Shown: one piece after another, positions 7,111-50,677 of the stretch | Numbering within the stretch: position 1 is the stretch's first letter | How the letters are laid out: each line of letters begins with the position of its first letter | Assembly: GCA_022803075.1 (NCBI GenBank) | Contig: JAFFTF010000012.1 | Location: 1-64,000, forward strand | Origin: Micrococcales bacterium 31B | GTDB lineage: Bacteria > Actinomycetota > Actinomycetes > Actinomycetales > Dermabacteraceae | Length of the DNA: 64,000 nucleotides | Direction of reading: 5' to 3' | The notes under the pieces: generated by a model | Seen by the model: the letters and a program-made list of their open reading frames with translations, nothing else | Told to the model about the DNA's origin: nothing | Database searches by the model: none | Made by a program: the position numbers and the translations under genes

Positions 7111-7735
7111 GGTTGGTTTCCCTCGCTTGGGGTGCGACCTCGGGGCGCGCCGAGGCGCGGCCCGCGCGGTCAAAGTAAGACTCGAACCGCGTCAGTACGT
7201 CTTCGTTGATCAGCGGCACAATAGCGGGCGACACCGTGTAAAGGTAGGCGGCGTCTGGGCTCTGCGAAAGCAGCCGCACGTCCACCACGGCATTGAGGGC
7301 GGCGTCGGCGCGGCGCTCAAGGCGGGCCTCGTCGCCGTCATCGTCCTCTCGAAACCTGCGCAAAAATTCAATCACCTGGGCGCGCGTGATCATCACCGGT
7401 TCATCCAGGGAATCCGCGTACAGGTGTTCGGTGCGCAGGTGGATGAGCAGGAGCGAGGCGTCCCGAGACAGAGGCTTGTCACGTCGCAGCACGCGGGGGG
7501 CGTTTTCGCTCGGGTCTTGTCGCTTGAACGCGACCTCGTATTCGCGGTCAATGTCGAGCATGAGAAACATGTTGGCCAGGTGCTCCCTGATCTCCGACTC
7601 ATAGGTAAGAATTGCCTGCCAGGCCGGCCCATTCTGCGTCCGAGAAATAAACCTGTTCGTGAGCAGAGCGGCGATGGCGCGCCGCGCGTCGTGGGGTAGC
7701 TGGGCGGGGTCGGCGGATGCTTCTGACATGGTCAT
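7103..7735 (-). CDS. jetB: Wadjet protein JetB (DUF4194)
   Basis: A 210-residue DUF4194 protein, the MukE/MksE-like winged-helix subunit that bridges the JetA kleisin and the JetC ATPase. Visible sequence includes a region typical of the family (DAAYLYTVSPAIVPLINEDV) near residues 160-185. The ATG at 7733-7735 overlaps the jetA stop in an ATGA arrangement, and its own stop overlaps the jetC start. The three genes are therefore probably translated as a coupled unit in near-fixed stoichiometry. Confidence 0.92.
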   Translation of the reverse strand: MTMSEASADPAQLPHDARRAIAALLTNRFISRTQNGPAWQAILTYESEIREHLANMFLMLDIDREYEVAFKRQDPSENAPRVLRRDKPLSRDASLLLIHLRTEHLYADSLDEPVMITRAQVIEFLRRFREDDDGDEARLERRADAALNAVVDVRLLSQSPDAAYLYTVSPAIVPLINEDVLTRFESYFDRAGRASARPEVAPQARETNHA

Positions 7736-9195
7736 CCTTTGAGCTGAATCGTCTCGGTGAACCGCACGCGAGGCAGCGTCGCGGTGAGCGGAAGGTCGGC
7801 CTCTGGCGCGAGCTCGACGCTGTCTAGGTGTTCCGCATCGATCGCACCAAATCGCACCGCCAGATCGAGAATGCTGACCAGCGCACCGAGCCGACGAAAC
7901 TCGGGGTCGGTATGCTCAAGCACCTCGGCGCCGGTCACCTCTGCGCGGTCGACGAGAAGGTCATTCACGGTTTGCGCGAGTGCCCGAGGGCTCGTGCCCG
8001 TGGCGAGGCGAAGCGCGGCGCGGTCGGCGTCGCTCAGTTCAGTGGCGTGTTCGGTCGCCTCGAACACCACCGACGTGTCGCCGGTGTCGTGCCAAAACTG
8101 CACCTGCGAGATGTCAGAGATGTTGAGCGACCCGACACCGAGCACATCGCCCTGCAGATAGCGTTGCTGGGGCTCGCGCTGCACCCATTCGCTGCCCGTG
8201 TGCAGCGCCAGTTCGGCCCGTCGCAGCAGGTGACGATGCCGCTCGTGAGCAGATCTCGTCAAGAAGCGACGCAGTGAAGCCGACCACCTCGTGCGGCTCT
8301 GCTCGACCTCAAGTTCTGCCCGCAATAGCGTTTCAATCATGGTGTCGAGGTCTTCGCACTCTGCGGCCGTCATGTGGGTGCGCGCGAACTCCTGCCGCAC
8401 AATGAGGTCAACATCGGCGCGGATGCGCTCAGCCTGGCCCGAGGTCAACAGCCTCGAAAACGCCGCAAACGCGCGGCCCTCGCTGGATTGCGCGAGGTAA
8501 TCGTGCTGACGCAGGTAGTCTTCCACGAGCTCGGCCTTGGGCGGGCCGTCGGCCATGACGCGACGCGCGATGCCCTGATGACTGTCGTCGACCTTGGCCT
8601 TCAGAGAGCGAAAGTCGGCCGGGAGTCCGCGCGTCATCGCAAGGATCTCGCGCACCTGCTGACGCATCTCGTCGACCGTGGCGAGAGACGCCTCGCCGCT
8701 CGCGATGGCGGCGCGTCGCTGCTGCAGGGCCGCAATCTCTGCGTCGATGCGCTGCACCTGCGCCGCGCGATCGGGGTTAACCATGTCGGCCAGCAGGTGT
8801 ACCGCGTGTGTGATGGATTCGAGCCGGGCGCCGCTGACGGCAGACTCGCCCGCCAGCGTCTCTCGCACGAGGCTGAGCGCCCGCAGCGAATGATGAGAGA
8901 GACGATAGCGCAGGCGACCTCCGCGAGTTTCGGTGCTGAGCCACTTCTTGTCTATCCAGTCGCGGCACAGGTCGGCGGCCTCTTGGGCCACCTCGCCGAC
9001 CGCGGCGGCCCGCGCGGCCGTGACCCGCTCGTGAAACCACTCGGCCGATACCGATTCGTCGGAGTCCTCGAGATGCTCCATGAAGAGCGGGACGATCCAG
9101 GTGCGCGAGTGCGCACGCAGCAGGGCCAGGGCAGGGCTAGATTCGAGCGCTTCTACCAGGGCGTCGGACGCTGGGTTCACTCGTGCTTGCCTCAA
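7732..9195 (-). CDS. jetA: Wadjet protein JetA (DUF3375), kleisin-like subunit
   Basis: About 487 residues with the DUF3375 signature that defines type I Wadjet. The protein starts with LxxxSPALALLRAHSRTWIV-like sequence and includes a helical kleisin-type region (about residues 140-220, MVNPDRAAQVQRIDAEIAAL). JetA corresponds to MukF/MksF and links the ATPase heads. It is the first gene of the operon. The longest frame uses TTG at 9195. A GTG at 9180 with a GAGG about 9 bases upstream is a good alternative start, shortening the protein by five residues. No defect is visible. Confidence 0.92.
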   Translation of the reverse strand: MRQARVNPASDALVEALESSPALALLRAHSRTWIVPLFMEHLEDSDESVSAEWFHERVTAARAAAVGEVAQEAADLCRDWIDKKWLSTETRGGRLRYRLSHHSLRALSLVRETLAGESAVSGARLESITHAVHLLADMVNPDRAAQVQRIDAEIAALQQRRAAIASGEASLATVDEMRQQVREILAMTRGLPADFRSLKAKVDDSHQGIARRVMADGPPKAELVEDYLRQHDYLAQSSEGRAFAAFSRLLTSGQAERIRADVDLIVRQEFARTHMTAAECEDLDTMIETLLRAELEVEQSRTRWSASLRRFLTRSAHERHRHLLRRAELALHTGSEWVQREPQQRYLQGDVLGVGSLNISDISQVQFWHDTGDTSVVFEATEHATELSDADRAALRLATGTSPRALAQTVNDLLVDRAEVTGAEVLEHTDPEFRRLGALVSILDLAVRFGAIDAEHLDSVELAPEADLPLTATLPRVRFTETIQLKG

Positions 9196-10791: not shown

Positions 10792-12849
10792 CTAGCGCAA
10801 GAACGCGGCGGCGACGCCGGCGTCGACGGGAATGTGCAGGCCCGTGGTGTGCGAGAGGTCGGACGTGCACAGCACGAACACCGCGTTCGCCACGTTCTCG
10901 GGCACCACCTCACGCTTCAATATGGTGCGCTGCGCGTAGAACGCGCCGAGGTCTTGCTCGTCAATGCCATACGTCTGGGCGCGGTTCGCGCCCCAGCCCG
11001 AGGCGAAAATGCCCGAACCGCGCACGACCCCGTCGGGGTTGATGCCGTTGACCTTGATGCCATGCTCGCCGAGCTCGGCGGCAAGCAGCCGCACCTGGTG
11101 CGCCTGGTCGGCTTTGGTGGCCGAGTAGGCGATGTTATTGGGGCCCGCGAACACCGAGTTTTTCGACGAAATATAGATGATGTCGCCGCCGAGCTGCTGC
11201 GCGATGAGCACGCGCGCGAAGTTCTTCGAGACGAGAAAGGAGCCCTTCGCCATGACGTTATGCTGCAGGTCCCAGTCGGCCTCGGTGGTGTCGAGCAGCG
11301 ACTTCGACAGGCTCAGCCCCGCGTTGTTGACCACGAGGTCGACGCCGCCGAAGGCGAGCACGGCCTCGGCGAGCGCGGCCTGGATCGCGGCCTCGTTCGA
11401 AACGTCGGCGGCGACGCCCACGGCGACGTCGGGGCCGCCCAGCTCGTCGGCCACGGCCTGCGCCTTCTCGAGCGAGAGGTCTGCGATGACCACGCACGCG
11501 CCCTCGGCGGCGAGGCGCTGCGCGATGGCCTTGCCGATGCCACTCGCGGCGCCGGTCACGAACGCGATGCGCGTCGCGAGCGGTTTGGGCTTTGGCATGC
11601 GTTGCAGCTTGGCTTCTTCGAGAGCCCAGTATTCGATGCGGAACTTCTCGGCGTCGCTGATGGGCGTGTACGTCGAGATCGATTCGGCGCCGCGCATGAC
11701 GTTGATGGCGTTGATGTAGAACTCGCCCGCGACGCGCGCGGTCTGCTTGGTGCGGCCATAGCTGAACATGCCGACGCCCGGCACCAGAATGATGAGCGGG
11801 TCGGCGCCGCGCATCGCGGGCGACTCGGGGCCGGCGTGCGCGGCGTAATAGGCCGCGTAGTCGGCGCGATACGCCTCGTGCAGGGCGGGCAGGGCCGCCA
11901 CGGTCTCATCGAGGGACGCGCCGGCGGGCAGGTCCACGACCAGCGGCTTGACCTTGGTGCGCAAGAAATGGTCGGGGCAGCTGGTGCCGAGCGCGGCGAG
12001 GCGCGGCATGGCCTCGCGGGCCAAAAAGTCCAGCACCTCGGGCGCGTCACTGAAGTGGCCCACCTGGGGGGCGTCGTGGCTCGCGAGGGCACGCAGGTAC
12101 GGGGCGAGGGCGGCGGCCCGGGCCCGACGCGCGTCCGGTTCGAGGGGTTCGTAACCGGCCCTGATCGGCCCCAACGGTTCGGCCTTGCCGTGCGTTTCGA
12201 GGTAGGTGGCGGCGGTTTCGATGATCCACAGGGAGTTGCGTTCGCACTCCTCGCTGGTCTCGCCCCACGCGGTGATGCCGTGGCCGCCGAGGATCACGCC
12301 GCGCAGGGTCGGGTTCGCCTCGTGCAGGGCGGCGATGTCGAGGCCGAGCTGAAAGCCGGGCCGGCGCCACGGCACCCACGCGACGGCCCCGCCGAAGATC
12401 TCGGCGGTGAGTCGCTCGCCGTCGGCGGCGGTCGCTATGGCGATGCCGGAGTCGGGGTGCAGGTGATCGACGTGCGCGGCGCGCACGAGCCCGTGCATGG
12501 CGGTGTCGATCGACGGTGCCGCTCCCCCGCGCCCGTGCAGGCAGTAGTCGAACGCGGCGACCATCTCGTCCTCGCGCTCGACACCGGGGTACACGCCCAC
12601 CAGGGCCCGCAGTCGCTCAACGTTCAGCACGGCAAGGCCGGGCTCGGTGAGGGTGCCGAGGTCGCCGCCGGAGCCCTTGACCCACAGCAGTTCGGTGTCG
12701 GCCCCCGTGACGGGGTCGGTGGCGGTGCCCTGGGCGGACGTGTTGCCGCCCGCGAAGTTGGTGTTGCGCTTGTCGGCGCCGAGTCGGTTGGAGCGCGTCA
12801 GCAGTTCGGCGACGGTCTGGTTCGAAGTGCGGAGGCTGGTCGTGGTCAT
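10792..12849 (-). CDS. rhaD: Bifunctional rhamnulose-1-phosphate aldolase / short-chain dehydrogenase
   Basis: A 685-residue fusion (also called RhaEW). Residues about 1-400 form a class II aldolase: metal-ligand region VDHLHPDSGIA and the motif GGHGITAWGE. This part splits rhamnulose 1-phosphate to DHAP and L-lactaldehyde. Residues about 425-685 form an SDR domain with the Rossmann motif VTGAASGIGKA, NNAGLS, and catalytic YSATK. It should convert L-lactaldehyde (oxidation or reduction, depending on the organism) without releasing it far from the aldolase. The ATG at 12849 overlaps the upstream hydrolase stop by 4 bases. This fusion is the usual rhamnose solution in Actinobacteria, Bacillus and rhizobia that lack E. 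coli-type RhaD/FucO. Confidence 0.94.
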   Translation of the reverse strand: MTTTSLRTSNQTVAELLTRSNRLGADKRNTNFAGGNTSAQGTATDPVTGADTELLWVKGSGGDLGTLTEPGLAVLNVERLRALVGVYPGVEREDEMVAAFDYCLHGRGGAAPSIDTAMHGLVRAAHVDHLHPDSGIAIATAADGERLTAEIFGGAVAWVPWRRPGFQLGLDIAALHEANPTLRGVILGGHGITAWGETSEECERNSLWIIETAATYLETHGKAEPLGPIRAGYEPLEPDARRARAAALAPYLRALASHDAPQVGHFSDAPEVLDFLAREAMPRLAALGTSCPDHFLRTKVKPLVVDLPAGASLDETVAALPALHEAYRADYAAYYAAHAGPESPAMRGADPLIILVPGVGMFSYGRTKQTARVAGEFYINAINVMRGAESISTYTPISDAEKFRIEYWALEEAKLQRMPKPKPLATRIAFVTGAASGIGKAIAQRLAAEGACVVIADLSLEKAQAVADELGGPDVAVGVAADVSNEAAIQAALAEAVLAFGGVDLVVNNAGLSLSKSLLDTTEADWDLQHNVMAKGSFLVSKNFARVLIAQQLGGDIIYISSKNSVFAGPNNIAYSATKADQAHQVRLLAAELGEHGIKVNGINPDGVVRGSGIFASGWGANRAQTYGIDEQDLGAFYAQRTILKREVVPENVANAVFVLCTSDLSHTTGLHIPVDAGVAAAFLR

Positions 12850-38613: not shown

Positions 38614-39591
38614 ATGACAACTGCCCTGCGCATCGCCACGCTCAGCTTCTGGCACGTCCACGCGGGAGACTACTCGCGCGACACCCTGAACCACCCGGGC
38701 ACCGAACTGGTCGCCGTCTGGGACGACGACCAAGCACGCGGCGAGGCAGGAGCGAAGGAGTTCGGCGCCGAATACACGAACGACCTCGACGGCCTGCTCG
38801 CGCGCGAAGACCTCGACGGCGTCATCATCACGACCGAGACCCGCCTGCACACCGAGGTAATGCTGAAGGCCATCGCCGCGGGCAAGCACGTCTTCACCGA
38901 GAAGATCCTCGCCCCCACCGTCGCCGAATGCGAGCAGATCATCGCCGCTGCCCGCGCAAAGGGCGTCGCCCTGACGGTCTCGCTCCCCCGCCTGTACGAC
39001 GCGTACACGCAGGTCATCAAGGGTATTCTCGAGGCCGGCAGCCTCGGCGACATCTCGTACTCGCGCGTGCGGCTCGCCCACGCCGGCTCCACCTTCGGCT
39101 GGCTGCCCGACCGCTTCTACGACGCCACCGACGCCATCGGCGGCGCCCTCACCGACCTTGGCTGCCACCCCGTCTACCTCACTCAGCTCATTCTCGGCCT
39201 CGAACCACAGCGCGTCAGCGCGACCTACTCCGATTTCAGCGGAGTCGGCGTCGACGACAACTCGGTCGTCACCGCCCAGTACGCGAGCGGCGCGATCGGC
39301 GTGATCGAGGCCGGCTTTGTGCACTCCAACAGCCCGTTCTCCATTGAGGTGTACGGCACGAGCGGCGGCGTGCGCTACAGCGAAGACCAAGACTTCGTGT
39401 GGCTGCAAACCGGCGAAGGCACCCAGCAGTTGCCGCTCGGCGACCGCCTGCCCACCGCCTACGAGCAGTGGGTCACCAGCATCCACGACGGCACGCTCCC
39501 CGAGGACAACCTCGAGCGCGCCACTCACCTCACGCGACTCGTTGTCGCGGCCAACGCGGCCGCAGCCAGCGGCAGCCAGGTCGACTACTAA
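38614..39591 (+). CDS. Gfo/Idh/MocA-family oxidoreductase, atypical N-terminus
   Basis: A 325-residue NAD(P)-dependent sugar/polyol dehydrogenase relative. The usual GxGxxG loop is replaced by SFWHVHAGDY (residues about 11-20), and the EKP motif is EKI. Both changes occur in a known sub-branch. The C-terminal alpha/beta domain has DLGCHPVYLTQLILG with the active-site His. With the second oxidoreductase 57 bp downstream it forms a two-gene operon. Likely substrates are sugars or inositols, not determinable here. Confidence 0.85.
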   Translation: MTTALRIATLSFWHVHAGDYSRDTLNHPGTELVAVWDDDQARGEAGAKEFGAEYTNDLDGLLAREDLDGVIITTETRLHTEVMLKAIAAGKHVFTEKILAPTVAECEQIIAAARAKGVALTVSLPRLYDAYTQVIKGILEAGSLGDISYSRVRLAHAGSTFGWLPDRFYDATDAIGGALTDLGCHPVYLTQLILGLEPQRVSATYSDFSGVGVDDNSVVTAQYASGAIGVIEAGFVHSNSPFSIEVYGTSGGVRYSEDQDFVWLQTGEGTQQLPLGDRLPTAYEQWVTSIHDGTLPEDNLERATHLTRLVVAANAAAASGSQVDY

Positions 39592-39592
39592 A

Positions 39593-39607
39593 CCACCCGC
39601 GCGTCCG
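39593..39607 (+). repeat. Dispersed 15-mer CCACCCGCGCGTCCG, between the two oxidoreductase genes
   Basis: Exact class B copy starting two bases after the stop of the first oxidoreductase gene, in the 57-bp gap before the second. Confidence 0.7.
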
Positions 39608-39648
39608 CAAAAAATGCCGACCGCGCCCCCACTCTCGAAGGAAAACCC

Positions 39649-40695
39649 ATGACCCTCAAAGTTGGCATTATCGGAATCGGCGGCATCTCGGGCACCCACG
39701 TGCCCGGCTGGAACGCCTCGGAGCACGCGGAGATTGCGGGCGCCGCCGACGTGAACCCCGCGGCCCTCGAAAAGTTCGGTGCGGAGCAGGGCATCACGAA
39801 GCTCTACAGCGACGCGAACGACCTCATCAACGATCCCGACATCGACATCATCGACGTGTGCACGCCCAACGGCATGCACGCCAAGTTCTCGATCGCGGCG
39901 CTCAACGCTGGCAAGCATGTGCTGTGCGAGAAGCCGCTCGCACCCACCCCGGGCGAGATCGAGCAGATGATCGAGGCCCGCGATAAGAGCGGCAAGATGC
40001 TCATGACGGCGCAGCACTTTCGCTACACCGACACGGCCATGGCCCTCAAGCAGGAGATCGAGACGGGAGTGCTCGGCGACATCTACCACGCCCGCGCGTG
40101 GATGCTGCGCCGCGCGGCCCTGCCCGCCTGGCCCGGCATCATGTACAAGAAGAACTCGTTCGGCGGCCCGTGCATCGACATCGGCGTGCACATTCTCGAC
40201 CTGACCCTGTGGATGATGGGCAATCCCAAGCCCGTGAGCGTCTCGGGCACCGCCAAGACCGCCCTCGCCCTGCGCGACGGCGCGTGGACGAAGTGGGGCG
40301 GCGATATTCCGAAAGACATGGACAACGAGGACTTCGCCGCGGCGTTCGTGCGCTTCGAAAACGGCGCGACCCTCATGCTCGAGGTCTCGTGGCTGCTGCA
40401 TCACGACACCGACGGCGAAGACATGCGCATGTGGCTGTACGGTGACAAGGGTGGCTCGCTGTGGCCCAAGAACGAGATTCTCTCGGCGTCGGCGACGCAT
40501 CACCAGCTGTACAACACGCAGTTGAAGCACGCGCCGACCGTGATTGAAGCGCACGCCGCCGAGTGCGTCGACTTCGCCGCCGCCATCGCGGAGGGCCGCC
40601 CCTCCCCCGTGCCCGCCGAGCAATCGCTGCAGGTCATGAGCATTCTCGACGGCATCTACCGCTCGCAGGCGGAGGGTCGCGAGATTCAGCTGTAA
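39649..40695 (+). CDS. Gfo/Idh/MocA-family oxidoreductase
   Basis: A 348-residue enzyme with a canonical nucleotide loop GIGGISGTH (residues 9-17), CEKPLAP (the catalytic-lysine EKP motif), and GPCIDIGVHILDLTLWMMG with active-site Asp/His. It is typical of glucose-fructose oxidoreductase/inositol dehydrogenase relatives. The paired arrangement of two such enzymes often means successive oxidation and reduction at neighbouring positions of one sugar derivative. Confidence 0.9.
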   Translation: MTLKVGIIGIGGISGTHVPGWNASEHAEIAGAADVNPAALEKFGAEQGITKLYSDANDLINDPDIDIIDVCTPNGMHAKFSIAALNAGKHVLCEKPLAPTPGEIEQMIEARDKSGKMLMTAQHFRYTDTAMALKQEIETGVLGDIYHARAWMLRRAALPAWPGIMYKKNSFGGPCIDIGVHILDLTLWMMGNPKPVSVSGTAKTALALRDGAWTKWGGDIPKDMDNEDFAAAFVRFENGATLMLEVSWLLHHDTDGEDMRMWLYGDKGGSLWPKNEILSASATHHQLYNTQLKHAPTVIEAHAAECVDFAAAIAEGRPSPVPAEQSLQVMSILDGIYRSQAEGREIQL

Positions 40696-42284: not shown

Positions 42285-42294
42285 TGGTTGACCA
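42285..42294. promoter_or_regulatory. FadR/GntR-type operator, distal copy
   Basis: TGGTTGACCA is a TGGT-N2-ACCA palindrome, the pattern of FadR-subfamily GntR sites. An identical 10-mer occurs 87 bp downstream. The cognate regulator is probably the FCD-domain protein at 46744. Confidence 0.6.
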
Positions 42295-42371: not shown

Positions 42372-42381
42372 TGGTTGACCA
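42372..42381. promoter_or_regulatory. FadR/GntR-type operator, proximal copy
   Basis: Second exact TGGTTGACCA, 139 bp before the transporter start. Two sites 87 bp apart would allow looping by a dimeric repressor. Confidence 0.6.
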
Positions 42382-42519
42382 TCTGTCTTGAGGGCGTGCA
42401 TACTAACTGAGTCGAACTCACCGACCACACCTACGGGGGCTCACCTTGGCGCCGCTACTAGCCGCCACGAGATCGAGCAACCGACAACGAAGTCACTCCA
42501 CACAGAGAGGGGTCACGTG

Positions 42520-43905
42520 ATGTCGCAAGCACATCTCACCGAACCCACCGATACCCGCGTCGTGCGCAAGGCCGTTTGGGCCGGCGTCATCGGCAACTAT
42601 GCCGAACAGTACGAATTTGGTGTCTACGCCGCCCTGACCCCCGTGCTCTCGAAAGTATTCTTTCCCGCCGAAGACCAGTTTCTCGGCCAGCTCAGCGTGT
42701 TCGCAGGCCTCGCCCTCGGGTTTCTCATTCGCCCGCTCGGCGGCTTTATCTTCGGCCGCATGGGCGACCGCGTAGGCCGCAAGAAAATCCTCTCGCTCAC
42801 GATCATCATCATGGGCCTATTGACCGCCCTGATTGGCGTGCTCCCGACCTACGCCATGATCGGCTTTGCCGCGCCTATCCTGCTCCTCGCCCTGCGCCTC
42901 GGCCAGGGTCTTGCCGCCGGCGGCGAATACGCCGGCGCAGTCTCGTTCGTCGTGGAATACGGCCCCTCTCACCAGCGCGCCCGCTACACGTCGTTCGTCT
43001 CCATCTCGGTATTCGCCGGCCTCCTCACCGGTACCGGACTCACCTACTTACTCACTACGGCGCTCGGCTCTCAATCGATGTACGAGTGGGGCTGGCGAAT
43101 ACCGTTCCTCATTGCCTTGCCGCTTACCATCGCGGGCTTCTACCTGCGTCGCGCGGTCGAAGACACCCCCGAGTTCCGACGCCAGCAAGAACTCGAAGCC
43201 GCACGCAAGGCCGAATTCTCTGAAGAGATTCCCGCCACCGGCATCCTGGAAACCCTGCGCACGCAATGGAAGCCGATCCTGATCTTCTCGGGCTTTGCCA
43301 TGACCAACGCCGTGCTTTCATACACGTGGACCGCCTACATCCCCACCTACCTGCAAAGCGACGCAGCCGGCGACGGCAAGTTGACGAGCGGACTGTCCGT
43401 GGCCTCCACTTCCATCGCGTTGCTCGTGCTGCTGCCGCTGCTCTACCTCTCGGGCCGCCTCTCCGATGCGCTCGGCCGCAAGAAAATGCTGCTGCTCGGT
43501 TGCGTGACCACGCTCATCGCGGTGCCGCTCGCCTTCACCATCGTGGCGCGGGGCGGGTTCGTAAACGCCGTGCTGGGCCAGCTGCTCTACCTCGTGCCGA
43601 TCTTCTTTATTGCCGTGACCGTCACCGTGAACCTCGCCGAAATGTTCCCCACCAAGATGCGCTACACCGCGGGCTCCATAGCGTTCAACCTGGCCTTTTG
43701 CATCTTCGCCGGCACCGCGCCGCTCGTCGCCACTGCGCTGGTCGGCGCCACCGGCAACATCATGTCGGTCGCGATCTACGTGTGCGCCATCGCCCTCGTG
43801 TCGCTGCTCGTCGTGCTGTTCGCCTACCGAGAGACCTATCGCAAGGACCTCGCCGTCGATGACTACAACGCCGATGCCAACCACCACCTCCACGTAGCGA
43901 ACTAG
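42520..43905 (+). CDS. MFS transporter, metabolite:H+ symporter (MHS) family
   Basis: 461 residues from the ATG at 42520 (a GTG at 42517 is equally placed; AGAGAGG lies upstream). MHS features are present: NYAEQYEFGVYAALTPVLSK in TM1, RPLGGFIFGRMGDRVGRKK in the TM2-3 loop, and QGLAAGGEYAGA in TM4. The family imports organic acids, betaine or alpha-ketoglutarate with protons. As first gene of a six-gene operon it should bring in the acid substrate of that pathway. Confidence 0.9.
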   Translation: MSQAHLTEPTDTRVVRKAVWAGVIGNYAEQYEFGVYAALTPVLSKVFFPAEDQFLGQLSVFAGLALGFLIRPLGGFIFGRMGDRVGRKKILSLTIIIMGLLTALIGVLPTYAMIGFAAPILLLALRLGQGLAAGGEYAGAVSFVVEYGPSHQRARYTSFVSISVFAGLLTGTGLTYLLTTALGSQSMYEWGWRIPFLIALPLTIAGFYLRRAVEDTPEFRRQQELEAARKAEFSEEIPATGILETLRTQWKPILIFSGFAMTNAVLSYTWTAYIPTYLQSDAAGDGKLTSGLSVASTSIALLVLLPLLYLSGRLSDALGRKKMLLLGCVTTLIAVPLAFTIVARGGFVNAVLGQLLYLVPIFFIAVTVTVNLAEMFPTKMRYTAGSIAFNLAFCIFAGTAPLVATALVGATGNIMSVAIYVCAIALVSLLVVLFAYRETYRKDLAVDDYNADANHHLHVAN

Positions 43906-43909
43906 CATC

Positions 43910-44722
43910 ATGACGTTCACCCACCTCATCGCTATTCCGGGCACGCAGTGCACGGGCGAGGTTTTCACCCCTATGCTCAGCGTGGTTCGCGCGGCGTTCC
44001 CAGACCTCAAGGTCACGATTCACGAACTGCGCGAATCGAGCCTGGACGCCGCCGCTGCCGCCGTGGCAGCCTCGGCCCCCGTTCCTTCCGTGCTCCTGGG
44101 CCACTCGCTCGGCGGCACCGTGGCCCTGGCCACGGCGAGGCAATACCCAGGTCGGGTGCAGTCGGTGGCTACCGTGTGCAGTAATCCGCGCGTGCCTACC
44201 AATCGCCAACGGGCACAGTGGTTAAAGAACCTGGGCTATGTGGGTCGCGGCGAATACCTCGACATCATCGCCGGTCTCATGCCGAGCCTGCTGCACCACG
44301 CTCGCCGCGACCGCGCGTCGCTGCGCAACATCGAGAGCGAGTGCCTCGACATGGCCAAGCGGCTGGGCAGCGCGGCCTATGTGCAGCAGACGAAGATTCA
44401 ACTGACGCGCCGCGACGAGCGCTCTGCGGAGTCCCGCTGCGGCATCCCAACTCTCTCTATAGCGTGCGAAGACGACCCGCTGGTAGAGATTGACGCCGCG
44501 GCCGAGATCGTCCATGGGGTGAACTCGGGGCGGTTCGTGGCACTCCCCTTCGGCGGCCACATGGCACCCCTCACCGAGCCCCAACTCGTGGCGGAGACGC
44601 TGATCGCATGGCTGCAGCAACCTGCTGGCCCCATCGTGACCGAGGCGGCGGCGGCCGTCGAGTCCTCGCCACGCGACGTGGCAACCATCCCTTCCCTCCA
44701 ATTAAGTAAAGGACGCTCATGA
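43910..44722 (+). CDS. Alpha/beta hydrolase in the acid-sugar operon
   Basis: 270 residues. The nucleophile elbow GHSLGG is near residue 64, a candidate acid lies in CEDDPLVE, and the catalytic His is in FGGHMAPL near residue 225. It starts 5 bp after the transporter and overlaps the bicupin gene by ATGA, so it is firmly within the operon. A lactonase or ester-opening role would fit a pathway for a sugar acid, but this is inference. Confidence 0.85.
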   Translation: MTFTHLIAIPGTQCTGEVFTPMLSVVRAAFPDLKVTIHELRESSLDAAAAAVAASAPVPSVLLGHSLGGTVALATARQYPGRVQSVATVCSNPRVPTNRQRAQWLKNLGYVGRGEYLDIIAGLMPSLLHHARRDRASLRNIESECLDMAKRLGSAAYVQQTKIQLTRRDERSAESRCGIPTLSIACEDDPLVEIDAAAEIVHGVNSGRFVALPFGGHMAPLTEPQLVAETLIAWLQQPAGPIVTEAAAAVESSPRDVATIPSLQLSKGRS

Positions 44723-45873
44723 ACACTTCAGTCAACGTCAGCGAAGCAGAGTTGACGCGTCGCACTATCCGCCGCGACGCCCTCGTCTCGTGCAATCAGG
44801 CCTTCATCGACTGCCGCACCCCCGGATCGCACCTGAAAGAAAACTATGCGCTGATCGGCAACGGCGTCTCTCAAAGCGACGGCCAATTCATTAACCTGCA
44901 GGAAGACCACGGATACAACATTGGCGCGGCCGCCATGCCCAACGGGGTCACCAACTCCCTGCACATGCACTTCACCGCCGAGGTCTTCTTTAACTTTGGC
45001 GGCGAGTGGAAGTTCCGCTGGGGCCGCGACGGCGCCGACGGTGAATACGTCTCTCACGACGGCGACATCGTCACCGTACCCACGTGGATCTTCCGCGGCT
45101 TCACCAACGTCGGCCCCGATAACGGCTGGCTTTTCACCGCCCTGGGGCAGAGTGACACGGGCGGCATCATCTGGGGCAACAACGTCCTCGAAGAGGCCGA
45201 GGGCCACGGCATGTACCTCACGAGCGAGGGTCGCCTGATAGACACGGTTGCGGGCGACGAGATGCCTCCCGGCGACGACCTGATCCGGCCCCTGCCCGAC
45301 GACATCGTAGACTCCATGCGCGGCTGGACAGTCGAGCAGATGCGCGCCCGCATCACGAGCAATGACGATCTGGAATGGTGCGACGAACCGTTCCTGTGCT
45401 CCCTCCTGCCCGGCGGTGGCGCCCAGCTCGCCACCGTGATCGGCTACGGCATGACCGAAAACCGCGACCAAACCCCGCGCGTGTTCAACCCGCATTCCTT
45501 CAACGTCGCGTGGCTGCGCGCCAGCGTCGGCGAGGGCGTGCTACGCCACTATCACAACGAAACTCAGGTCGTCATCGTGAAATCGGGACGCTGGAAGGTC
45601 ACCCTCAACGAGGGTGCCGAGCAACGAAGTGTCGAACTCAACGCGTCCGACACCCTGTCGATCCCGCCGGGCGCATGGCGCGCCTTTGAAGCCCTCGAAG
45701 CGGGCGACGAGGGAATGGCTCGACTCCTCGTCGTCAACGGCGGCGACGGTCGCGTGCGCCTGCACTGGTCGAGCGACCTGTGGCGCGAGGTCAGCGACAA
45801 GGGAATCTCCCGCGATGCCGACGGATACGTCGCTCCGTCGTTCCTGCTCGCCGTCGCCACTGAAGACGACTAA
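44719..45873 (+). CDS. Bicupin protein of unknown activity
   Basis: 384 residues with two cupin domains. In the first (about 60-165), LHMHFTAEVFFNFGGEW supplies His-x-His...Glu metal ligands. In the second (about 255-345), RHYHNETQVVIVKSGRWKV supplies the equivalent set. This is the overall shape of gentisate-type dioxygenases, oxalate decarboxylases and some sugar isomerases, but the sequence matches none that I can name. It sits between hydrolase and aldolase, 50 bp before the latter, suggesting an isomerase or dioxygenase step. Confidence 0.8.
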   Translation: MNTSVNVSEAELTRRTIRRDALVSCNQAFIDCRTPGSHLKENYALIGNGVSQSDGQFINLQEDHGYNIGAAAMPNGVTNSLHMHFTAEVFFNFGGEWKFRWGRDGADGEYVSHDGDIVTVPTWIFRGFTNVGPDNGWLFTALGQSDTGGIIWGNNVLEEAEGHGMYLTSEGRLIDTVAGDEMPPGDDLIRPLPDDIVDSMRGWTVEQMRARITSNDDLEWCDEPFLCSLLPGGGAQLATVIGYGMTENRDQTPRVFNPHSFNVAWLRASVGEGVLRHYHNETQVVIVKSGRWKVTLNEGAEQRSVELNASDTLSIPPGAWRAFEALEAGDEGMARLLVVNGGDGRVRLHWSSDLWREVSDKGISRDADGYVAPSFLLAVATEDD

Positions 45874-45923
45874 ACCATTCGGGTGCGCCGCATGCCTCGC
45901 GGCGCACCCCACCAAGGAATCTC

Positions 45924-46742
45924 ATGCGCACCCATCACCTCCGTCAACACCTCGAAGCCGGCCGCACCGCCGTCAACGCCTGGCTGTCGCTGGGCAGCCC
46001 CTACGCCGCCGAAATCATCGCCCACTGCGGTTTCGACAGCGTCACCCTCGACCTCCAGCACGGCATGTTCTCACGTGACGCCGTGGTCGCCATGCTGCAG
46101 GCAGTGTCGACGAGCCCCGCCACACCGCTCGTGCGCCCCACGCGGCCTGACCCCGATGAAATTGGCTGGCTCCTCGACGCCGGCGCGTACGGCATCATCG
46201 TCCCCTCCGTGCACGACGCCGCGACGGCCCGCCGCGTCGTCGACGCGTGCTTTTACCCGCCGCATGGAACCCGCTCGTTTGGTCCGTCCCGGGGCATCAC
46301 CTACGGCGGCACCGACTACGTGGCCGCATCTCGTGAAACCCTCACGCCGTGGGTCATGATCGAGTCGCGGGCCGCACTCGACGCGCTCGATGAGATCTGC
46401 GCGGTTCCCGGACTCTTTGGCGTCTACGTCGGACCCAACGACCTCGCACTAGACCTCGGACATCCCGCCGGCGGCCTCATCAGCGACGAAGTCTCTGCCA
46501 TCACGTATCGCATAAACCAGGTCGCGCATCGCCATGGCGTGCGCACCGGCATCTTCTGCGCCAACGCCGACGAGGCCGCCCACTACGCAGAAGTAGGCTT
46601 CGACCTGGTGACCCCCGGCAACGACGCCTCGCTATTGCGTCACGCGGCGAGCCAACGCATTGAGGCGGTTCGAGCAGTAGAATGGGCAGCCAGTGAGGCG
46701 CCACTCGCCGTCAAACCCGAGTCAACCAGCGGAGGCTATTAA
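45924..46742 (+). CDS. HpcH/HpaI-family aldolase
   Basis: A 272-residue class II pyruvate-type aldolase. Family motifs are present: SVTLDLQHGMFSRD, the substrate Arg region PLVRPTR, the metal Glu in WVMIESRAAL and Asp in VYVGPNDLALDLG. Such enzymes cleave 2-keto-3-deoxy or 2-keto-4-hydroxy acids to pyruvate plus an aldehyde. It is followed 1 base later by the FadR regulator, whose ribosome site lies inside the end of this gene. Confidence 0.92.
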   Translation: MRTHHLRQHLEAGRTAVNAWLSLGSPYAAEIIAHCGFDSVTLDLQHGMFSRDAVVAMLQAVSTSPATPLVRPTRPDPDEIGWLLDAGAYGIIVPSVHDAATARRVVDACFYPPHGTRSFGPSRGITYGGTDYVAASRETLTPWVMIESRAALDALDEICAVPGLFGVYVGPNDLALDLGHPAGGLISDEVSAITYRINQVAHRHGVRTGIFCANADEAAHYAEVGFDLVTPGNDASLLRHAASQRIEAVRAVEWAASEAPLAVKPESTSGGY

Positions 46743-46743
46743 C

Positions 46744-47511
46744 GTGTCGAGCGCAACCGCCGTTCCCCCGCCCTCCGGCGGCGCGACACCACTCGGGCCC
46801 GGCGAGACGGGTGCCGACGCAGGGAACGGTGGCGGCGCGGCGTCCACCCTCACCGAACGCCTACTCGACTACGTGGCCTCGCAGGGAACCCGCCCCGGCG
46901 AGAAACTGCCCGGCGAACGCAAACTCGCCGAACATTTGGGCGTCGCACGACACGTGCTGCGCGAATCGCTGCGAACCCTCCACCTCCTCGGGTTCGTGGA
47001 TGTGCGCCAGGGCGATGGCACCTACTGGAAGAATTCCCCCGCGACGGCCATGCCGCGCACCATCGAATGGCAGATGATCACCGAATCCGCCTCGATGACG
47101 CACCTCATTGAGGCGCGCGCCGAGATCGAAGTTCTCGTATGTACCCTGGCTGCGACCCGCGCAAGCGAAACAGACATGGCACAAATACGTCAGCGCTTCG
47201 AATTCATGGTGCTCGCCGCCGACGCGGGAGACGTTGACCTGTACTCGCGCTCCGACATTAGCTTTCACCTTGCGATCGCCAAAGCCGCAGGCAACAGTGT
47301 CCTCGAAGGTGTACTCACGAGCATTAGGAGCCTCTCCGCACGGTGGACCGAGAGCGTCCTCCAGAACATTGAACTTAGTGATTCGCTGGCCGTGCACGAA
47401 CCCATCATGAATGCGCTCTCCTCGCGCGACCCCCTGGCTGCCAGCCTCGCCATGCGCGCCCACATGGACGCCGCGGCCGCCAACCTCCTGGCCGCCACCA
47501 GCGAAGACTAG
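46744..47511 (+). CDS. FadR-subfamily GntR transcriptional regulator
   Basis: 255 residues from GTG 46744, with GGAGG at 46732-46736. After a Pro/Gly-rich N-terminus, the winged helix-turn-helix is residues about 37-100 (LPGERKLAEHLGVARHVLRE, GFVDVRQGDGTYW). An all-helical FCD ligand domain follows, with metal-ligand positions such as DISFHLAIAKAAGN. It is embedded in the operon it most likely represses through TGGTTGACCA at 42285 and 42372. The ligand is probably an intermediate acid of the pathway. Confidence 0.9.
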   Translation: MSSATAVPPPSGGATPLGPGETGADAGNGGGAASTLTERLLDYVASQGTRPGEKLPGERKLAEHLGVARHVLRESLRTLHLLGFVDVRQGDGTYWKNSPATAMPRTIEWQMITESASMTHLIEARAEIEVLVCTLAATRASETDMAQIRQRFEFMVLAADAGDVDLYSRSDISFHLAIAKAAGNSVLEGVLTSIRSLSARWTESVLQNIELSDSLAVHEPIMNALSSRDPLAASLAMRAHMDAAAANLLAATSED

Positions 47512-47562
47512 GCCCTCGCGCCGCACGCCAACCCAGACACCACGCCAACCCCAGGACCAGCC

Positions 47563-48936
47563 ATGCCCACATCACCCCTCCTCGTACTCGACGACGACCC
47601 CACCGGTTCACAATGCGTTGACGATGTCATGATTGCCTTCGACCTCGAACCCGAGGTCATCATCGAACACCTCAACTCACCCGCGCGCGTCAGTTTCGCG
47701 CTCACGAATAGCCGCGCGCTGCGCGAAGACGATGCCCTCGCCGTGCAGCGGGCCGTCGTCGCACCCGTGCTCGCGCACGTCACAGCGCCCCCACCGCTAC
47801 TCGTATCTCGCTCAGATTCGACACTACGGGGGCACGTGATCGCCGAACCCGAAGCCCTACGCGACCAGGCCGAGGCGTCCGGCCGCGCCGTGGGCGGAAT
47901 CCTGTTCGTGCCCGCGATGCTAGAGGCCGGCCGCACCACGCGCGACGACGTTCACTTTTGCACGACGCCGGGGGGCGAAGTGCCCGTCGGCCAGAGCCAC
48001 TTTGCCACCGACGCCACCTTCGGATACCGCTCGTCCAACCTGCGCGAGTTCCTCGAAGAGCGCTCCGGCGGGCGCATTTCGGCCGCCGACGTACTGAGCA
48101 TTACGGCCAACCACATAGCTGGCGGCCCAGACAAGGTGTGCGACGTGCTCAGGTCTGCGCAAGGCGCGTGGGTGATCGTGAACGCCACGACCTACGCGGA
48201 CCTCGAGATTGTCGCCGCCGCACAGTGGCGCCTCGAACGCGAGGGAACCACGTTCATTACCCGGTGCGGCCCCTCCTACGTGCACTCCCTGCGCGGCACA
48301 CCTCGAGCCTCGACACTCAGCGCCGACGCCCTCGCCGCACATGTCACGAACGATCCGCCCCGCGGACAACACGGCTTGATTGTGGTCGGCTCGCATGTCG
48401 ACCTCACGTCAGCTCAACTTCACCATTTGCAGCGGAACGCCGGCCTCATCGAATGCGAACTCGACGCTCACGCTCTCCTCGGCCCCGAGGCGCCCGGGTA
48501 CCTCGCGGAAACGGCGAGGAAAGTGCGCGAGTCGCTCGACTCCAACACCGTAGTCGTGTATACGAGCCGGGCCCTGCTGCGCACCGACGACCCCGACGAG
48601 TCGCTCGCCATCTCCAAGCGCATTTCAGACGGGGTCGTGGCCCTGGTGCAGTCCGTCATGGTTGACCGACCCGCCTGGGTCGTCGCCAAAGGTGGCATCA
48701 CCTCGCATGAAGTGGCGAGGCACGGACTGGGCATCCGGTCGGCGCGCGTCGTGGGCCAGTTCTACCCCGGGCAGATCTCGCTCATGGTCGCCACGGACGC
48801 GGCCGAGCACTCCCTCGGCTGCCCCTACGTTATCTTCCCCGGTAACGTCGGCGACGAGTCGGCGCTGACCTACGTCGTGGGTGTGCTGCGGGCAGCGACA
48901 GAAATCGCGCGCTCGCCGCAGCGTACCCGCGCGTAG
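47563..48936 (+). CDS. Four-carbon acid sugar kinase family (DUF1537, OtnK/DtnK-like)
   Basis: 457 residues. The N-terminal DUF1537 domain has DDDPTGS (residues 9-15) and SRSDSTLRGH (near 84). The C-terminal nucleotide-binding domain has VVAKGGITSHEVA and the late PGNVGDE. Characterised relatives phosphorylate erythronate, threonate or 4-hydroxythreonate-like acids. It closes the operon. Standard OtnK pathways pair it with a dehydrogenase plus OtnC or PdxA2; those are absent here. Confidence 0.92.
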   Translation: MPTSPLLVLDDDPTGSQCVDDVMIAFDLEPEVIIEHLNSPARVSFALTNSRALREDDALAVQRAVVAPVLAHVTAPPPLLVSRSDSTLRGHVIAEPEALRDQAEASGRAVGGILFVPAMLEAGRTTRDDVHFCTTPGGEVPVGQSHFATDATFGYRSSNLREFLEERSGGRISAADVLSITANHIAGGPDKVCDVLRSAQGAWVIVNATTYADLEIVAAAQWRLEREGTTFITRCGPSYVHSLRGTPRASTLSADALAAHVTNDPPRGQHGLIVVGSHVDLTSAQLHHLQRNAGLIECELDAHALLGPEAPGYLAETARKVRESLDSNTVVVYTSRALLRTDDPDESLAISKRISDGVVALVQSVMVDRPAWVVAKGGITSHEVARHGLGIRSARVVGQFYPGQISLMVATDAAEHSLGCPYVIFPGNVGDESALTYVVGVLRAATEIARSPQRTRA

Positions 48937-49121: not shown

Positions 49122-49433
49122 ATGGGCAGAGGCGCTGACGGCGCGCTGGACGCCTCGCGGGTGCCCTCCCTGTGCGCGACCCTCGCGTTCCCGCGATTCC
49201 TCGGCACCCTCGCCGACGACCGGGTCGTGATCACCCCGCTCGGCGGCGGCCGCACCCTGGAACTCACCTGGGCGACCAACGCACCGGTCACGGCCACCCT
49301 CGAAGAGTGGCGACTCGAGGACGACCTGCTGCAACGCTCCTGGGGCGATACCCTCACGAGGCTCACCGTGATTCTCGGTGCCACCGAGGGCGCCTGCCGC
49401 ACCACGCTCACGTACGCGAAAGGCCAGCGATGA
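49122..49433 (+). CDS. Orphan small protein or remnant upstream of a DeoR/LacI-type regulator
   Basis: 103 residues from the ATG at 49122. The frame stays open upstream to a TAG at about 49005, and that segment (INEGFAYWWNCACRLLECLD) looks like genuine protein, so this may be the C-terminal part of a decayed larger gene. The body (VVITPLGGGRTLELTW, LEEWRLEDDLLQRSWGDTLT) is beta-rich, with no recognised family. Its stop overlaps the regulator start by ATGA. Alternative non-ATG starts upstream are possible. Confidence 0.5.
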   Translation: MGRGADGALDASRVPSLCATLAFPRFLGTLADDRVVITPLGGGRTLELTWATNAPVTATLEEWRLEDDLLQRSWGDTLTRLTVILGATEGACRTTLTYAKGQR

Positions 49434-50677
49434 CCGCCGATTCGACCCCGCGATTTGCCAACCAACGCCAGCAACGGCTGCTCGACGAACTACGCGACAA
49501 CGGTTCGCTGCAGGTGCGCGACATGGCCGAACGGCTAGGGGTGAGCGAGCTGACGGTACGCCGTGACCTCAACACCCTGGCGAGCCAGGGCCTCGTGGAC
49601 CGCGTCCACGGCGGCGCCACGCTCGCGCAGCCCGGCGGGTCGGGTGCGCGGGGTGCGGGCGGTTGGGGTGGGCGGGGTTGGGGCCCGGACGCGCGGTTCC
49701 TCCCTGGCCGCGCCCCCGCCGCGGGCGCGGGCCCGGTTTCAGGCCCGGTGCCGGCCCCGGTGGCCGACCCCGACTCCGACTCGCAGTCGGCGCATGCCCC
49801 CGCGACGCTCACGCTCGGCATGGTGGTGCCCTCGCTCGAGTACTACTGGCCGCATGTCATGAACGGGGCGAAGCAGGCGGCGCAGGCGTTCGGGGTCAGG
49901 CTGGTGGTGCGCGGCTCGACCTACGACGCTGCGCACAACCTCAAACAGGTGCAGGCCCTTTGCGATTCCGGGCGCGTCTCGGGATTGCTCGTGGGCCCCA
50001 CTCTGAACCGGCAGGGCAGTGAGGAGTTGCTGCGCTTTCTCGACCAGGCACCCGTTCCCGTGGTGCTCGCAGAACGCCGGCCGCCCCACGAACTGGGGCT
50101 CGAGAATCTCAGCTCGGTCTCGACCCGGCACGAGTTCGGTGCGGCCCTCGCCGTGCGGCATCTCGCGGCCAGCGGGCGGAGGCGCATCGCGACCATCATG
50201 GCACCGAACTCCCCCACCACGGGCCACGTGATGCACGGGGTGACACAGACGCTGCACCGTCTCGGGCTCGACGCCGGGCCGCACTACCTGGTGGACGGGG
50301 GTCGCATGTCGGGGGCCGAGGTCGAGCGCCGCCACCTCGAGATCATTGCCGAATGTCGCTCCCAGGGGGTCGACGCGCTGCTCATTCACCCCGACCAGCA
50401 GGCCCTCACGTTCACGCAGAACTGCCTTGACCAGGGGCTATCAATACCGGACGACTTCGCCATCGTCGCCTATGACGACGAGGTGGCACACCTCGGCCAG
50501 CCGTCCATCACGGCCGTGCGGCCCCCCAAGGAACACGTGGGCGCGCTCGCGGTGCAGGTGCTGCTGCGACTGCTCGGCGCGGGTGACGCGGAGCCGCGCG
50601 AGCACGTCACGCTGAACCCGACGCTCAACGTGCGCGAGTCGACGGTCCGCGCGGTGGAGGATTTACCCCCCGGCTGA
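49430..50677 (+). CDS. Regulator with DeoR-type HTH and LacI-type sugar-binding domain
   Basis: 415 residues from the ATG at 49430. Residues 8-65 are a DeoR-family HTH (QQRLLDELRDNGSLQVRDMA, ERLGVSELTVRRDLNTL, GLVDRVHGGA). A Gly/Ala/Pro-rich linker of about 55 residues follows. Residues about 125-405 are a periplasmic-binding-protein-like domain as in LacI proteins (TLGMVVPSLEYYWPHVMNGA; FAIVAYDDEVAHLGQPSITA). It probably senses a sugar or sugar-like ligand directly, unlike classical DeoR proteins that sense phosphorylated sugars. Its targets are unknown. Confidence 0.88.
   Translation: MTADSTPRFANQRQQRLLDELRDNGSLQVRDMAERLGVSELTVRRDLNTLASQGLVDRVHGGATLAQPGGSGARGAGGWGGRGWGPDARFLPGRAPAAGAGPVSGPVPAPVADPDSDSQSAHAPATLTLGMVVPSLEYYWPHVMNGAKQAAQAFGVRLVVRGSTYDAAHNLKQVQALCDSGRVSGLLVGPTLNRQGSEELLRFLDQAPVPVVLAERRPPHELGLENLSSVSTRHEFGAALAVRHLAASGRRRIATIMAPNSPTTGHVMHGVTQTLHRLGLDAGPHYLVDGGRMSGAEVERRHLEIIAECRSQGVDALLIHPDQQALTFTQNCLDQGLSIPDDFAIVAYDDEVAHLGQPSITAVRPPKEHVGALAVQVLLRLLGAGDAEPREHVTLNPTLNVRESTVRAVEDLPPG

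Follow-up and report, generated by a model that had tools for sequence, protein, structure and literature searches.

The six genes at positions 42520–48936 of a 64,000-nucleotide stretch from Micrococcales bacterium 31B (contig JAFFTF010000012.1, positions 1 to 64,000; the whole stretch is the window in what follows) encode an MHS-family (metabolite:H+ symporter) importer, an alpha/beta hydrolase, a bicupin, an HpcH/HpaI class II aldolase (HpaI), a FadR-type regulator and a DUF1537 kinase; judged from their layout, they are one operon. The explanation that we favor, and to which we give about an even chance as a whole, is that this FadR-controlled operon would break down a small carboxylic acid with hydroxyl groups, or the lactone or ester of such an acid, with the hydrolase, bicupin and HpaI passing their product to the kinase. 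By comparison across bacteria, these three genes are an old conserved module. Because the module adjoins otnK and otnC in some bacteria without a dehydrogenase, it looks like a feeder into the 3-oxo-tetronate route (LtnD, OtnI, OtnK and OtnC; Zhang et al., 2016, as summarized in PMC12540250), in which it would replace the dehydrogenase.

All six genes lie on the + strand and either overlap slightly or are separated by at most about 50 bases; the open reading frames and the Pfam/NCBIfam matches bear out both the tight packing and the families given in the initial annotation. The MHS/MFS permease (42520–43905) matches TIGR00883 with an E-value of 3.6e-106, below the cut-off. The hydrolase (43910–44722; PF00561) is distant from PcaD, BioH and RutD and is probably a lactone/ester or C–C hydrolase. 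There follow the bicupin (44719–45873), in which the Cupin_2 match covers the C-terminal half only; HpaI (45924–46742; PF03328, E-value 6.9e-29), which belongs to the group of the hydroxyketoacid aldolase SwHKA; the FadR/FCD regulator of the GntR family (PF00392 and PF07729; 46693–47511 as the longest open reading frame, with the real start probably further inside); and the kinase (47563–48936; PF07005 and PF17042, E-value 8e-45), from a clade of actinobacterial enzymes that is separate from both OtnK and OiaK. As the initial annotation had stated, the standard partners of such a kinase are missing: Pfam/NCBIfam searches find no dehydrogenase (LtnD/DenD included), OtnC, OtnI or PdxA2 among the six genes. 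Genome-wide, PdxA (no PF04166 match) and OtnC are missing as well.

The gene set is not a chance assembly, because the same order recurs in another genome of this taxonomic order (G400, locus L118): the MHS, hydrolase, bicupin, HpaI and FadR genes are arranged identically, with a divergent DUF1537 gene beside them. Identity to the L118 counterparts is 72% for the bicupin, 69% for the permease, 57% for HpaI and 43% for FadR, the last being orthologous in position. In the tree, the L118 kinase belongs to a different DUF1537 clade from the window kinase; neither is of the OtnK type, and OtnC is missing from both loci.

Outside these two genomes the module usually keeps other company. A tblastn survey of the ±8 kb around the bicupin in 52 named actinobacterial genomes (53–69% identity) finds a HisD-type dehydrogenase at all 52 loci, the hydrolase and a LacI regulator at 51 each, HpaI at 49, an SDR at 48, a SnoaL-like protein at 47 and an MHS permease at 25; DUF1537 is found at none. 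The bicupin, HpaI and hydrolase genes are adjacent in the window and likewise at eight other loci (L061, L062, L064, L065, L066, L067, L118 and L121). A HisD-type dehydrogenase with an SDR, also seen at the module loci of Klebsiella and Pantoea, is the commonest combination among the relatives, and DUF1537 kinases occur in a minority. HisD and a DUF1537 kinase never share a locus among those inspected (about 62 have HisD, 8 a kinase and 2 neither); the replacement of the kinase by HisD and SDR suggests that the downstream half of the pathway is exchangeable.

Searches of plasmids extend the module to Pseudomonadota and place it beside the known route. Salinivibrio kushneri and Vibrio pelagius have the order otnK-otnC-otnI-bicupin-HpaI-hydrolase; Thioclava has bicupin-HpaI-hydrolase-otnK-otnC followed by a TIM barrel that is OtnI-like (279 of 325 bits); and Ensifer has SnoaL-HpaI-hydrolase-otnK-otnC plus a bicupin. 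All four plasmid-borne clusters thus contain otnK and otnC, three of the four an OtnI-like gene, and no dehydrogenase was seen in any of them. The adjoining enzymes are bona fide OtnK (534–561 bits against a cut-off of 350) and OtnC (287 bits against one of 250), and in two more actinobacterial genomes (G420 and G421) the bicupin lies beside OtnK/OtnC homologues; the module is therefore not foreign to the known DUF1537 route, and the initial contrast with that route is not supported in the form given. With OtnK and OtnC present and a dehydrogenase absent, the product of the module would most simply be a 2- or 3-oxo-tetronate. In two related clusters, an RraA-family protein is encoded in the place of HpaI (L123, 9649–10341; L124, 9158–9853), together with shorter bicupins and amidase and SnoaL-like genes, possibly as a non-orthologous replacement of the aldolase. 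RraA and HpaI have different folds; both cleave 4-hydroxy-2-oxo acids and both decarboxylate oxaloacetate. That a protein with the same chemistry takes the place of HpaI supports a C–C lyase step.

HpaI can be tied to a crystallized enzyme. The HpaI protein of Sphingomonas wittichii RW1 (Swit_5035, in the Swit_5034–5036 cluster) is 100% identical to SwHKA, and its gene (7228–7983 of locus L121, on pSWIT02) has an alpha/beta hydrolase gene on one side and a bicupin gene on the other, with IS4-type transposases as flanking elements. In the alignment, SwHKA residues H44, R69, S116, R120, E145, D171 and F210 are all conserved in the window aldolase. The SwHKA study (PMC10099721) describes the roles of E145 and D171 (metal ligands), S116, R69, R120 and F210 and reports that the enzyme accepts pyruvate, hydroxypyruvate, fluoropyruvate and 2-oxobutyrate, binds hydroxypyruvate and also cleaves oxaloacetate; phosphate activates it, and inorganic phosphate is bound at R69/R120', in the position of the acceptor aldehyde. 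The HpaI proteins of the 52 actinobacterial HisD-type loci form a separate group in the tree, and the aligned example of this group (L047) lacks an aromatic residue at position 210.

The bicupin belongs to an uncharacterized family. In a 26-row alignment the N-terminal barrel has an invariant H82-x-H84...E88 motif, the usual fourth cupin ligand (His) is replaced by an invariant R126, and the C-terminal barrel has no conserved ligand set. The structural model (mean predicted local distance difference test score, pLDDT, 82) is an ordinary bicupin fold, for which quercetinases, oxalate decarboxylases and vicilins tie in structure comparison (Foldseek/VIA-align; Z about 20–21). A phmmer search of the PDB finds no sequence relative of the bicupin, and a profile search of the PDB gives weak matches to its C-terminal cupin only.

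The kinase also stands apart from its characterized relatives. The OtnK equivalog model (NF043035) gives no hit to it at E 0.001; the only match is a weak one to the D-threonate kinase model (NF047819), with 71 of 450 bits, and the OiaK model matches neither it nor its paralogue at a second locus, L003. In the tree it is separated from OtnK and falls into the part that holds kinases with an FBA-family aldolase as partner (L068 and L069). Such a pairing is that of the three-step L-threonate bypass of LtnD, 2-OtnK and an FBA-family 2-OtnC (Guo et al., 2024, according to PMC12540250); the comparison of the window kinase with 2-OtnK is one of tree position. The nearest relatives of the kinase within the same taxonomic family adjoin an LtnD-like gene, and some also adjoin genes for GntP-type permeases, TIM barrels, SDRs or ApnO-like proteins.

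Several candidates for a partner elsewhere in the genome were rejected. The two proteins of the genome that belong to Aldolase_II, the family of OtnC (NF043034), are of the AraD and RhaD types; a RuBisCO-like protein is absent from the genome; and the single PF00815 (HisD-like) protein, at C1:584721, is unlinked and is taken to serve histidine biosynthesis. A stand-alone FBA-family aldolase of 279 residues (G000:C23:192264-193082) is 41–42% identical to the DUF1537-partner aldolase of L068 and could be an unlinked, 2-OtnC-like partner of the kinase, a point against the initial reading as stated; its neighbors lend this role no support.

The second locus, L003 (G000:C2:82000-99000), encodes an ApnL homologue (NF049900, E-value 4.9e-62; 210 of 750 bits, far below the cut-off), an ApnO-like PGDH_C protein (PF16896), an LtnD-like protein, two TIM barrels, a FadR regulator and an adjacent HpaI–kinase pair 70% and 59% identical to that of the window. 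It also has an Nramp-like transporter and looks like an apionate-type pathway that lacks the RuBisCO-like protein; the D-apiose/D-apionate pathways involve ApnL, ApnO, OiaK and RuBisCO-like proteins (Carter et al., 2018, as cited in PMC6302742). The initial annotation would have counted dehydrogenase or OtnC genes co-regulated elsewhere against itself, and L003, with the pair next to LtnD-, ApnL- and ApnO-like genes, goes part of the way. Both window proteins are sisters of the L003 copies (support 96/93 for HpaI and 99/99 for the kinase), so the pair travels together; the two HpaI proteins are nested with that of G400 (100/99), and no HpaI was seen at relatives of the L003 locus in the tblastn survey. 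Most likely, to judge from the trees, the pair was assembled in one locus and then copied to the other, and such joint copying argues for linked intermediates.

In the mechanism that we propose, the permease would import the substrate, and the hydrolase would open a lactone or ester or cleave a C–C bond. The bicupin, with a metal bound by H82, H84 and E88, would then isomerize or oxygenate what the hydrolase delivers, and the SwHKA-type aldolase would cleave or enolize a 2-oxo acid bound to Mg/Mn, yielding a C4 oxo-acid sugar at the level of 2- or 3-oxo-tetronate, a (hydroxy)pyruvate-type fragment, or both. The kinase would phosphorylate the terminal hydroxyl of the C4 fragment, and conversion of the phosphorylated product to triose phosphate would fall either to HpaI again, now as a decarboxylase, or to an unlinked FBA-family (2-OtnC-like) aldolase. 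In other bacteria, OtnK/OtnC would take over the product of the module; the commoner combination is with the HisD-type dehydrogenase and SDR.

Several observations weigh against this explanation. The modeled fold alone does not tell the chemistry of the bicupin, that is, isomerase or oxygenase; the mutual exclusion of HisD and kinase covers only the ±8–9 kb inspected at roughly 70 loci; and the FBA-family aldolase on C23 has no acid-sugar neighbors. The OtnK-type loci hold both HpaI and OtnC, and the inspected part of the cluster of SwHKA itself lacks a kinase; the order of HpaI and kinase is therefore a guess. In addition, the HpaI and kinase trees both contain long branches.

Each of the other explanations that we considered accounts for part of these data. 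The duplication of HpaI together with the kinase also fits an aldolase that acts only after the kinase, as a retro-aldolase that splits a phosphorylated 2-oxo acid into pyruvate or hydroxypyruvate and a phosphorylated aldehyde and needs no further partner; the genome lacks OtnC and PdxA, and the window enzyme retains the R69/R120' pair that binds phosphate in SwHKA (PMC10099721). We nevertheless regard this order of steps as unlikely, in that the clusters of SwHKA and of the HisD type have HpaI with no DUF1537 kinase. We give similarly little weight to a side branch of D-apiose/D-apionate catabolism, in which HpaI and the kinase would replace the RuBisCO-like protein by phosphorylating and decarboxylating 3-oxo-isoapionate, the window copy acting on a close relative of that compound. 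The L003 pair, sister to that of the window, does directly follow the ApnL homologue in an ApnO-like locus, in a genome without a RuBisCO-like protein; however, the OiaK model matches neither kinase, the ApnL match stays far below its cut-off (210 of 750 bits), the window operon contains neither ApnL nor ApnO, and ApnO occurs without HpaI in other genomes that carry kinases of this clade.

The kinase could also be a recent, functionally unrelated hitch-hiker that serves an L003-type locus, with the pathway ending at the aldolase. Its gene is the last, after that of the regulator, and its clade is not that of the kinase that accompanies these genes in G400; however, two different DUF1537 clades, as well as OtnK, became linked to this module in independent events, and the gap before the kinase gene is about 50 bp, so we consider this quite improbable. 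A more ambitious reading, which we advance only tentatively, makes the bicupin-hydrolase-HpaI module an undescribed route for the catabolism of some widespread natural acid: the bicupin would perform an unprecedented step (e.g., skeletal rearrangement, isomerization or oxygenation), and SwHKA-type aldolases would meet their natural substrate. The window would hold the shortest form, in which a DUF1537 kinase with a new specificity replaces HisD and SDR.

Candidate operators are located upstream of the operon. Two identical palindromes, TGGTTGACCA, occur 139–235 bp before the MHS gene, at 42285–42294 (+) and 42372–42381 (+); the second overlaps the −35-like hexamer (TTGACC) of the only promoter-like site upstream of the operon (42375–42404). 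Their core, TGGTNNACCA, occurs four times in the window vs 0.5 expected. The divergent promoter of the L118 cluster is filled with related sites (GGTTGACCGGTCGACC and GGTCGACCGGTCGACC), and a member of the same site family, TGGTCGACCA, precedes the FadR gene of L003. Such palindromes are the general form of FadR/LldR-type operators, and a FadR-type protein is encoded in the operon; we count these candidate sites among the evidence for the favored explanation. A genome scan with a strict paired-operator pattern for further targets gave no match, and the 10-mer on its own is not enriched genome-wide over its reversed control (25 vs 30); no regulon was therefore drawn.

The genes around the operon add no members to it. 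Two adjacent Gfo/Idh/MocA oxidoreductases (38614–40692), probably from an unrelated sugar locus, were rejected as the missing dehydrogenases: they are 1.8 kb away, an unrelated secreted protein and a GNAT protein are encoded between, and none occurs near L118. Membership of the LacI-like regulator at 49250–50674 has no support; this protein fuses a DeoR-type helix-turn-helix to a LacI-type periplasmic-binding domain (PF08220 and PF13377), an unusual pairing. Elsewhere in the window, 12202–12798 (−) belongs to a bifunctional rhamnulose-1-phosphate aldolase/short-chain dehydrogenase (TIGR02632, 995 bits) in a rhamnose catabolism locus.

The open-access papers searched contain no description of this gene set, nor of a bicupin/HpaI/HisD or bicupin/OtnK cluster. 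The pathway is likely to be undescribed, as first proposed, but it is a widespread module that in some bacteria appears to feed OtnK/OtnC, a route with which it was at first contrasted. The module ties SwHKA, a well-studied biocatalyst, a DUF1537 kinase clade and an uncharacterized bicupin family together across Actinomycetota and Pseudomonadota. Its context is a lead to the natural substrate of SwHKA, it makes both the natural role of this enzyme and the specificity of the kinase directly testable, and it predicts a new entry into C4 acid-sugar metabolism that bypasses a tetronate dehydrogenase.

Among known systems, the bicupin shares its two-barrel fold with quercetin 2,4-dioxygenase and oxalate decarboxylase (Z about 21, 11–15% identity) but conserves ligands in the N-terminal barrel only, as H-x-H...E with the fourth His gone. 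The operon resembles the SwHKA system (PDB 6R62; PMC10099721) in its HpaI group, in the active-site residues including the aromatic F210 and in the hydrolase-aldolase-bicupin neighborhood, whereas the S. wittichii cluster has an SDR and, in the region seen, no kinase. With the 3-oxo-tetronate route it has in common a DUF1537 kinase for an acid sugar and, in other bacteria, a module adjoining otnK, otnC and otnI; it differs in a kinase that fails the OtnK model, in the lack of OtnC, OtnI and LtnD (an LtnD-like gene sits in L003), and in a front end of bicupin, HpaI and hydrolase instead of a dehydrogenase. Compared with the three-step L-threonate bypass, it has neither LtnD nor an FBA-family gene, the only small FBA-family protein being the unlinked one on C23; its kinase shares one side of the tree with the DUF1537 genes that have FBA-family partners (L068 and L069). 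Finally, the apionate pathway differs from the operon in ApnL and ApnO, from the genome in its RuBisCO-like protein and from the window kinase in OiaK, yet the paralogous HpaI–kinase pair of the same genome is found in an ApnL/ApnO-like locus.

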